A stretch of 64,000 nt of DNA from an uncultured Deferribacterales bacterium (GTDB taxonomy: Bacteria > Chrysiogenota > Deferribacteres > Deferribacterales > Mucispirillaceae), in the NCBI GenBank assembly GCA_947853665.1, contig CANTXF010000010.1, positions 1-64,000 on the forward strand, given 5' to 3'. The position numbers and the translations under genes are program-made. This document shows positions 1 through 49,267 of this stretch, piece after piece. Under the pieces are notes generated by a model. The model was given only the letters and a program-made list of their open reading frames with translations. It had not been told where the DNA came from and ran no database searches. Numbering within the stretch: the first letter of the stretch is position 1; each line of letters opens with the position of its first letter.

Positions 1-70
1 GAGCAAGCCGCCGTATTATAAATATTTCCCATAACTTTATTAATCCGCGTAAGGGTATAGTTGCGAAATA
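1..70. repeat. Dispersed repeat, copy 1 (truncated by window edge)
   Basis: The first 70 bases are, as reverse complement, about 90% identical to 47519-47587; the differences are one indel and a few substitutions clustered around position 45-55 of this copy, plus one A/G change. Similarity stops after about base 70 on the inner side. On the outer side it runs into the window edge, so the element probably continues to the left. It is non-coding and lies upstream of the thioredoxin-like gene at 191. Its nature (mobile extragenic repeat, remnant of an element, structured RNA) cannot be decided here. Confidence 0.85.
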
Positions 71-47088: not shown

Positions 47089-47319
47089 TTATACCCTTTC
47101 GACCTCTATGCACGCGGCCTCGGACTTTCTTAAAGACAGATGATAACCTTTTATTTTAAGCTCCATCGGGTCGCCCAAAGGAGCGAACCTTTCCACCTCT
47201 ATAACGGAGCCGGGGGTAATGCCCATTTCCATTATACGCTTGTGAAGCTCGCCCTTAAAATTGGCTCTTATTACCCTGCAGCTTTCTCCGGGATTTATAT
47301 CCCTTAAAGTGATGCTCAT
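47089..47319 (-). CDS. feoA: FeoA domain protein
   Basis: 76 residues, SH3-like FeoA fold: RVIRANFKGELHKRIMEMGITPGSVIEVERFAPLGDPMELKIKGYHLSLRKSEA region visible across the length. It modulates FeoB. Strong GGAGAGGGAG ribosome site. First gene of the iron operon, with the Fur-like site upstream. Confidence 0.95.
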   Translation of the reverse strand: MSITLRDINPGESCRVIRANFKGELHKRIMEMGITPGSVIEVERFAPLGDPMELKIKGYHLSLRKSEAACIEVERV

Positions 47320-47419: not shown

Positions 47420-47459
47420 TAGTTTACATAATGTACAGTAAGGAGAACATACCCTACTT

Positions 47460-47587
47460 TAATCTGTGTAAGGGTATAGCCGCGGTTTAATATATACAGG
47501 AAGAAATATAAGTTAAAATATTTCGCAACTATACATTACCTGGATTAATAAAGTTATGGGGAATATTTATAATACGGCGGCTTGCTC
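47460..47587. repeat. Dispersed repeat, copy 2, with internal inverted pair
   Basis: 47519-47587 is the inverted counterpart of 1-70. In addition 47460-47484 (TAATCTGTGTAAGGGTATAG...) is an imperfect inverted match of 47524-47547, so this copy can fold into a stem of ~24 bp with a ~40-base loop. It is non-coding and lies between divergent feoA and mocR. Together with the structured segment next to it (47584-47680) it may be a longer extragenic repeat. Confidence 0.7.
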
Positions 47588-47680
47588 AGGCAATGAATAA
47601 TAAGACCGAAAGCGCTTGGCCAGGCACTCTCTTAATGGGGCAAAGCCTTCCGGGTTTGCCTTGCCTGAGCAGGTCTTATT
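47584..47680 (+). ncRNA. Candidate structured element with interleaved stems
   Basis: Four segments: A GCTCAGGCAA (47584-47593), B AATAAGACC (47599-47607), A' TTGCCTGAGC (47661-47670), B' GGTCTTATT (47672-47680). A pairs perfectly with A', B with B'; their order A-B-A'-B' allows a pseudoknot or two exclusive folds. A further hairpin GGCAAA/TTTGCC (47639-47660) is nested just before A'. No start/stop pattern supports a protein. Strand and expression are unknown. Confidence 0.4.
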
Positions 47681-47760
47681 ATGAATGTTTTTAACGCCTA
47701 AAGAGCATTATTATAACTATTTACCAACAACTATCCACGTTAGGGGATAGCCGCCGAATA

Positions 47761-47789
47761 TTTACTATGTATTGAAAACAGTGTATGAT
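47761..47789 (+). promoter_or_regulatory. Probable promoter of the MocR-like gene
   Basis: TTTACT (47761-47766), 17 bases, TATGAT (47784-47789), 29 bases before the ATG. It lies downstream of the structured element, which would therefore not be part of this transcript. Confidence 0.4.
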
Positions 47790-47818: not shown

Positions 47819-49267
47819 ATGGCGGCAAAAACGTTTTTCGAGCGCGAAGAAGGCGTGCCTCTTTATATACTTGCAGCCAACGCCCTGCGGGCGGAAATAA
47901 AAAGCGGCGGAATAACCCCGGGAACTAAGCTTTCGCAGCGAAGGCTCTCCGAAAAGCTGTCCGTAAGCAAAAAGACCGTGTCAGATGCCTTAAGTATACT
48001 GGAAGCCGAAGGCCTTGTCATATCGAAGCCGAAATCCGGCACCTTCGTAAACGGCAACCTGTGGCTGCTGCTTATAAAAAAAGACTCCCCCGACTGGAGC
48101 AGGCTCGCCTCCGGCGGAGCGCAGATGGCCTCGCCGGACGGCATATATTCGATAATGAAAGATATAAGCTCCGACCCGGTAATACATATATCCGGCCCTA
48201 CAATATCCAACGATTTCAAATATTACAGGCCCATACGCAAGGCTCTTGAAAAGGTATCAAGGCGCCTTGAAAGCACTAACGACCTTAACAGCAAAAATAT
48301 AATGGGCCTGCCCTCCCTCCGGGAAACCGTAGCCGCCCACATGGAGCGCTGCGGCGTTTACTGCTCCCCTGAACAGATAATGATAACACAAGGCTCCACC
48401 GAATCTCTGGCGGCGGTGTTTCTTTCGTTTCTGCGCAGGGGAATGAGGCTGTACTGCGAAACGCCTTCAATGCTCAATTCCATGACGCTGGCCCAGACCC
48501 TGGGCGCCTTACTGGAAAAAATACCCATGGACGAAGAAGGCATATCGGCGGAAAAGCTTGCCAACGCCGTAAGAAAAGGGGGCGGAGGCATGCTTTACTG
48601 CAATCCCGTAAACCAGTATCCTACTGGCATATCCACAAGTAAACGCCGCAGAGACGCCATTATGACAATATGCGCTGGCAAAGGCATACCCGTGATAGAA
48701 AACGACATGCTGAGGGATTTTTATATAGAAAAGCCGAACCCGAAGCCCATGAAAGCGTTCGATAAAAACGGCTCGGTAATATATATCGGCTCCCTTATGG
48801 GCGCTCATCTGGGTATGAAAATAAGCTGGGTCATAGCGCCGGATTTTTTAATGAAGCGGATATGCGACGTTAAATGCCAGTTTGAGATAATAGCAAACAC
48901 AATCGCCCAGATGACGGCGGACGAGCTTTTGAAAAACGGCTGGTATTACGAATATATGGAGGAATACAGGCCCGTATTCGCGGAACGCATAAGGCTCTGC
49001 GGCCTGCTGTTCGAAAAATATTTTTCCGGCATCGCCACATGGGAGCAGGCGGATAACAGCTGTTACAGAAAAGTAAAATTCGCCGAGCCGGTAAATACGT
49101 TAAAGATTTATAAAAAACTTAAAAATATAGTCGCCCTGCCGGGGTATTTTTTCGACGGCGGAGATACGTCCCACTTTTTTATCAGCCCTCTGGCGGATAC
49201 TGCGAGAAACCTGGAAGAAGGCATCAAGGCTGTGGCCCAATGCGTGCGCTCCACATACGGCCTTTAA
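47819..49267 (+). CDS. GntR/MocR-type regulator lacking the PLP lysine
   Basis: 482 residues. Winged helix GntR domain (residues ~12-80, LSQRRLSEKLSVSKKTVSDALSILEAEG) joined to an aminotransferase fold I domain (~120-480) with QGSTESLAAV, CNPVNQYPTG and VIENDMLRDFY. In MocR proteins the PLP Schiff-base Lys sits in a GT-x-SK motif; here the equivalent segment is YIGSLMGAHLG (residues 322-332), with Gly at the Lys position, and the EDDY-like motif reads ENDM. PLP is therefore probably not bound covalently; an amino compound may be sensed instead. Strong AAGGAGG site. It is convergent with the dmsAB pair and divergent from feoAB; target genes not known, possibly the CTGGA-containing region at 52390-52561. 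Confidence 0.8.
   Translation: MAAKTFFEREEGVPLYILAANALRAEIKSGGITPGTKLSQRRLSEKLSVSKKTVSDALSILEAEGLVISKPKSGTFVNGNLWLLLIKKDSPDWSRLASGGAQMASPDGIYSIMKDISSDPVIHISGPTISNDFKYYRPIRKALEKVSRRLESTNDLNSKNIMGLPSLRETVAAHMERCGVYCSPEQIMITQGSTESLAAVFLSFLRRGMRLYCETPSMLNSMTLAQTLGALLEKIPMDEEGISAEKLANAVRKGGGGMLYCNPVNQYPTGISTSKRRRDAIMTICAGKGIPVIENDMLRDFYIEKPNPKPMKAFDKNGSVIYIGSLMGAHLGMKISWVIAPDFLMKRICDVKCQFEIIANTIAQMTADELLKNGWYYEYMEEYRPVFAERIRLCGLLFEKYFSGIATWEQADNSCYRKVKFAEPVNTLKIYKKLKNIVALPGYFFDGGDTSHFFISPLADTARNLEEGIKAVAQCVRSTYGL

Follow-up and report, generated by a model that had tools for sequence, protein, structure and literature searches.

The repeat that begins the DNA analysed here (a window of 64,000 nucleotides, G000:C10:1-64000) is a miniature inverted-repeat transposable element (MITE), one of a family of the classical prokaryotic kind; we put the probability of this reading at about 0.94. 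Four features by which prokaryotic MITEs are recognised are present: a length below 500 bp with no open reading frame (ORF), terminal inverted repeats, a target duplication of fixed length, and many copies that are mostly intergenic.

The first-pass annotation of the window had reported that bases 1-70 and 47519-47587 form an inverted repeat. This pair is real. When the window was compared with itself by blastn, bases 1-70 matched 47587-47519 over 70 columns with 92.9% identity (E = 2e-19), far beyond chance, and next in rank came the related termini 47459-47511 and 47709-47760 (E = 0.002-0.004). The limits of 70 and 69 bp given for the two copies were wrong. Copy 1 ends at base 65, and bases 66-70 are AT-rich target flank that lies outside the element and matches by coincidence; copy 2 is a whole element of 232 bp. 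Copy 1 had also been described as cut by the window edge. It is indeed truncated at base 1, but the cause is the end of contig C10, where the window starts, and the remainder of this copy is therefore absent from the assembly. The neighbours of the complete copy are a feoA-like ORF (47089-47319, minus strand) and a MocR-like regulator ORF (47819-49267, plus strand). The features in the window are:

1..65, minus strand: copy 1, represented by its left end alone, model positions 1-65, and truncated where contig C10 ends (model match at window positions 65-1, E = 3.3e-16)
47451..47483, minus strand: fragment of a third copy, a solitary L-type end adjoining the complete copy (exact GTAAGGGTATAGCCGCG at 47468-47484; end-pattern match with one mismatch at 47462-47483; weak model match, E = 0.16)
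47516..47523, no strand: target duplication, left copy AAATATTT (identical to 47756-47763 in 7 of 8 positions)
47524..47755, plus strand: complete MITE copy of 232 bp, copy 2 (nhmmer model positions 2-232 at 47525-47755, E = 3.4e-66; limits from an alignment of 42 copies)
47524..47561, plus strand: left terminal inverted repeat, L type, CGCAACTATACATTACCTGGATTAATAAAGTTATGG... (alignments)
47562..47722, plus strand: core, consisting of inner arms and central stem-loops, without an ORF (consensus fold, conservation and ORF list)
47723..47755, minus strand: right terminal inverted repeat, R type, reverse strand GGCGGCTATCCCCTAACGTGGATAGTTG... (alignments; pattern match at 47733-47754)
47756..47763, no strand: target duplication, right copy GAATATTT (flank comparison)

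The consensus element is also 232 bp long. Its terminal inverted repeats are imperfect, with palindromic arms and with outer ends, GGCGGCTATCCCCTAACGCAGAT and CGCAACTATACCCTTACGCAGAT (also written GGCGGCTATCCCCTAACG... and CGCAACTATACCC...), that are common to the copies. The left end can be written as CGCAACTATACCCTTACGCAGATTAA(TG)TAAAGTTATGG, and the right end, read inward, as GGCGGCTATCCCCTAACGCAGATAGTTATGG; the two are inverted repeats of one another, with about 6-8 additional bases ahead of AGTTATGG at the left. Most copies contain the terminal inverted repeats CTATACCCTTACGCAGAT and CTATCCCCTAACGCAGAT, which in inverted orientation are identical at 16 of 18 positions. Inner arms (AAATATTTATAATA / AATAATTATAATA) extend these repeats further inward, and the entire element is nearly palindromic around its core, which holds two more stems (AATAATAAGAC...GTCTTATTATG and GGCAAGGC...GCCTTGCC). 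The ORF list contained no ORF of 60 amino acids or more within the element.

Searching the genome (2.43 Mb in 68 contigs) with bases 47420-47780 gave 56 matches, 40 of them of full type (E < 1e-31) and the rest short. A profile made from aligned copies was found at 122 distinct places, 83 with a score of at least 40 bits and 62 near full length. A degenerate pattern for the 22-base end occurred 53 times in the forward and 54 times in the reverse direction (107 in all); the reversed control matched 0 times and 1 time, respectively. The copy numbers come from searches and fetched stretches of the genome and are lower bounds: at least 62 copies near full length, and about 80 clear matches. The proposal in the first-pass annotation that the two copies belong to a family of extragenic repeats is borne out, with conserved boundaries and a mainly extragenic location. 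Because the window itself shows just two copies, they might have been ascribed to the plain segmental duplication of a single intergenic region, the outcome that the annotation had foreseen if two copies without boundaries were all that existed. This clearly fails: more than 60 copies share common ends and have unrelated flanks, and the explanation, already refuted, has a negligible probability. The copies lie mainly between genes, in AT-rich sites, with the adjacent genes on the same strand in 19 cases, divergent in 13 and convergent in 13.

The sequences flanking the element were compared in 26 intact copies. Identity between the 8 bases outside the two ends was 0.71, compared with 0.42 +/- 0.04 when partners were shuffled (z = 7.9), and it peaked sharply at k = 8, falling to 0.53 for k = 7 and to 0.50 for k = 9. 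For 15 of 21 individually listed copies the flanks agreed at 6 or more of the 8 positions (mean for shuffled partners 2.0, maximum 8), and four of the 21 had exact 8-bp duplications (TAATACTA, TTAAAAAT, TTTTGTTT and AAATTAAA); the duplicated sites in this set are 89% A+T. Target duplications, which the first-pass annotation had suggested looking for, are thus present in most intact copies as AT-rich sequences of 8 bp. Duplication of a fixed length of target around fixed ends is a hallmark of DDE-type transposition. The element would have been a short non-coding sequence with two transposase-recognisable ends, moved into AT-rich intergenic sites by a DDE transposase supplied in trans and now presumably lost from, or unassembled in, this genome; each insertion would have duplicated 8 bp of target. 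A REP/REPIN-type element, mobilised by a RAYT (an IS200/IS605-like HUH transposase), would share the extragenic location, palindromic sequence and high copy number. HUH single-strand transposition, however, is not known to make target duplications, and the 8-bp duplications speak against it. So does the unit itself, which has distinct terminal inverted repeats and a length of 232 bp as against 20-40 bp for a REP unit (PMC3733652), and we consider this origin extremely improbable.

The consensus folds as a single long hairpin (about -96 kcal/mol), and single copies fold better than shuffled sequences (mean z -3.6). Promoter-like sites in both arms face inward (47545-47573 on the plus strand and 47737-47710 on the minus strand), terminator-like sites are also present, and 42 of 50 copies carry TATAAT on each of the two strands, in the complete copy of the window at 47568-47573 (plus) and 47710-47715 (minus). 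These properties would fit a functional structured RNA or cis-regulatory element (a hairpin RNA, a terminator or an attenuator) that, once spread, was kept for its structure. When the consensus hairpin was mapped on 50 copies, however, 84.4% of cells were paired, compared with 84.0% in shuffles, and the covariation score of 0.144 showed no clear excess over the shuffled value of 0.140, with 70 of 500 shuffles scoring as high. Pairs were broken at about the rate expected of independent decay. Slid controls on the same 50 copies scored far below the actual hairpin pairing, because the ancestor was palindromic. Pairing without a clear excess of covariation over shuffles therefore indicates a structure inherited from a palindromic ancestor and not maintained as RNA. 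RNAalifold yielded no consensus structure, nothing in the window matched an Rfam family, and the copies have no preferred orientation to genes (10 versus 9). Maintenance of an RNA structure was rejected on these grounds, since pair counting with shuffles and slid controls gave no clear excess and RNAalifold was empty, and the RNA or cis-regulatory reading as a whole is highly improbable. The presence of TATAAT in both arms follows from the palindromic nature of the element; the promoter-like sites, as matches in sequence, are no evidence of function.

The MITE ends can be distinguished from one another, and the orientation of the core was determined relative to them. An L end was paired with an R end in 56 copies, of which 47 were L...R and nine were R...L, that is, inverted (L078:365-598, L082:370-601, L037:382-607, L079:348-578, L063:2274-2482, L076:2250-2476, L080:359-521, L030:1484-1658 and L052:373-534); two copies beyond those 56 had R...R end pairs. 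The inverted state changes 6 times on the best tree of cores, with at least 2 changes forced by well-supported branches, and the inverted copies formed a single clade in 0 of 200 bootstrap trees. Core inversion arose more than once: the events number at least 2, and about 6 is the probable figure. The simplest explanation of the inverted cores is recombination between the inverted, palindromic arms, which would have taken place after insertion in some copies. With a core that repeatedly inverts while the ends stay fixed, and with inward-facing promoter-like sites, the MITEs could conceivably act as small invertible switches, though this is very unlikely.

Pairwise identity among the copies averages 74%, with a maximum of 93%, and a tree built from the cores has a star shape in which the inner branches are short. 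Such a pattern is as expected if the family spread in one or more old bursts and its copies then decayed independently; the family is now decaying. Near-identical young copies could be missing, because some contigs have a start or end within the element. Many contig ends lie inside or close to a copy, and the assembly is fragmented in part because of the repeat; besides base 1 of the window, such ends are found in contigs C4, C5, C12, C15, C16, C17, C22, C23, C30, C36, C54, C55, C59, C60, C61, C62 and C63. Copies or fragments lie side by side or nearly adjacent at L067:163-571, L052:162-537, L031:368-830, L072:295-571 and, in the window, 47451-47755, which suggests insertion next to or into older copies. 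Core-like palindromic units without terminal repeats were also seen, repeated several-fold in intergenic arrays at L014:1742-2257 (C21) and L104:1-589 (C37). Both arrays contain CTGTYTGA...GAGTTTGCC and are possibly a related but different repeat family.

Searches of the genome for transposases of the ISL3, IS1595, DDE_Tnp_1 (IS4/IS5-type), IS6, IS66 and IS1 families gave no match. The IS256 type is represented by one intact element, at G000:C16:253918-254964 (L115:1401-2693). IS256-type elements typically duplicate 8-9 bp, and the duplication length of the class is compatible with the 8 bp seen here, but the ends of this element (GAGCCTGTCCCTAATTTTGTG; GAGCCTGT...) resemble the MITE ends no more than chance (p >= 0.27), and it was rejected as the parent. 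A parent was also sought as paired ends 0.6-8 kb apart. The sole long pair, at 5224-7160 of C41, consists of the ends of two separate MITE copies. In the fetched stretches, the ORFs adjacent to isolated single ends contained, by eye, no recognisable transposase. The associated enzyme that the first-pass annotation had suggested looking for has no matching candidate among these seven transposase families in the genome, and no autonomous relative with the same ends was found in this assembly, which is incomplete and has many contigs ending in the repeat. The parent is lost, unassembled, or outside the seven families searched.

Outside its own genome the family was not detected. A DNA search of 39 relatives gave no match, and each of the order's 45 other genomes contained the end pattern 0-2 times, a frequency similar to that of the reversed control. 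A core pattern run on 46 genomes of the order gave nothing past scattered chance-level matches outside the genome of origin. Across about 85,000 GTDB species genomes there was one isolated match to the end pattern, in Galliscardovia, where about two are expected by chance (an estimate), and none to a core 22-mer. Viral contigs, plasmids and phages gave no match beyond the scattered chance level, and the literature yielded no account of elements like these from a related lineage. The MITE family is new in sequence and, as far as these searches reach, not described before; it is ordinary in kind.

By description, the closest likeness is to the Chunjie MITE of Geobacter uraniireducens, which is 235 bp long, with 38 copies of 178-235 bp carrying inverted and direct repeats and 57 partial copies besides, mostly intergenic (PMC10969869); size, copy number and anatomy are closely alike. 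Intergenic palindromic repeats such as ERIC, QMITE2 and RUP/BOX also have degenerate and partial copies and are sometimes clustered (PMC10969869), and by description share these general features with the present family. The Correia element (NEMIS) of Neisseria is a short palindromic MITE with more than 120 copies and promoter-like sequences, for which inversion of the element has been reported (PMC10969869). The present family is likewise short and palindromic with promoter-like sequences, but its ends are different, and the inversion seen here is of the core with respect to the ends. The target duplications also differ, being TA for Correia and 8 bp here.

Beyond the definition of the family and its part in the fragmentation of the assembly, this is ordinary mobile-element biology. 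In the 46 genomes of the order that were searched the family is restricted to a single species, and its more than 60 copies, in differing states of decay and some with inverted cores, provide a usable record of how a MITE spreads and recombines.
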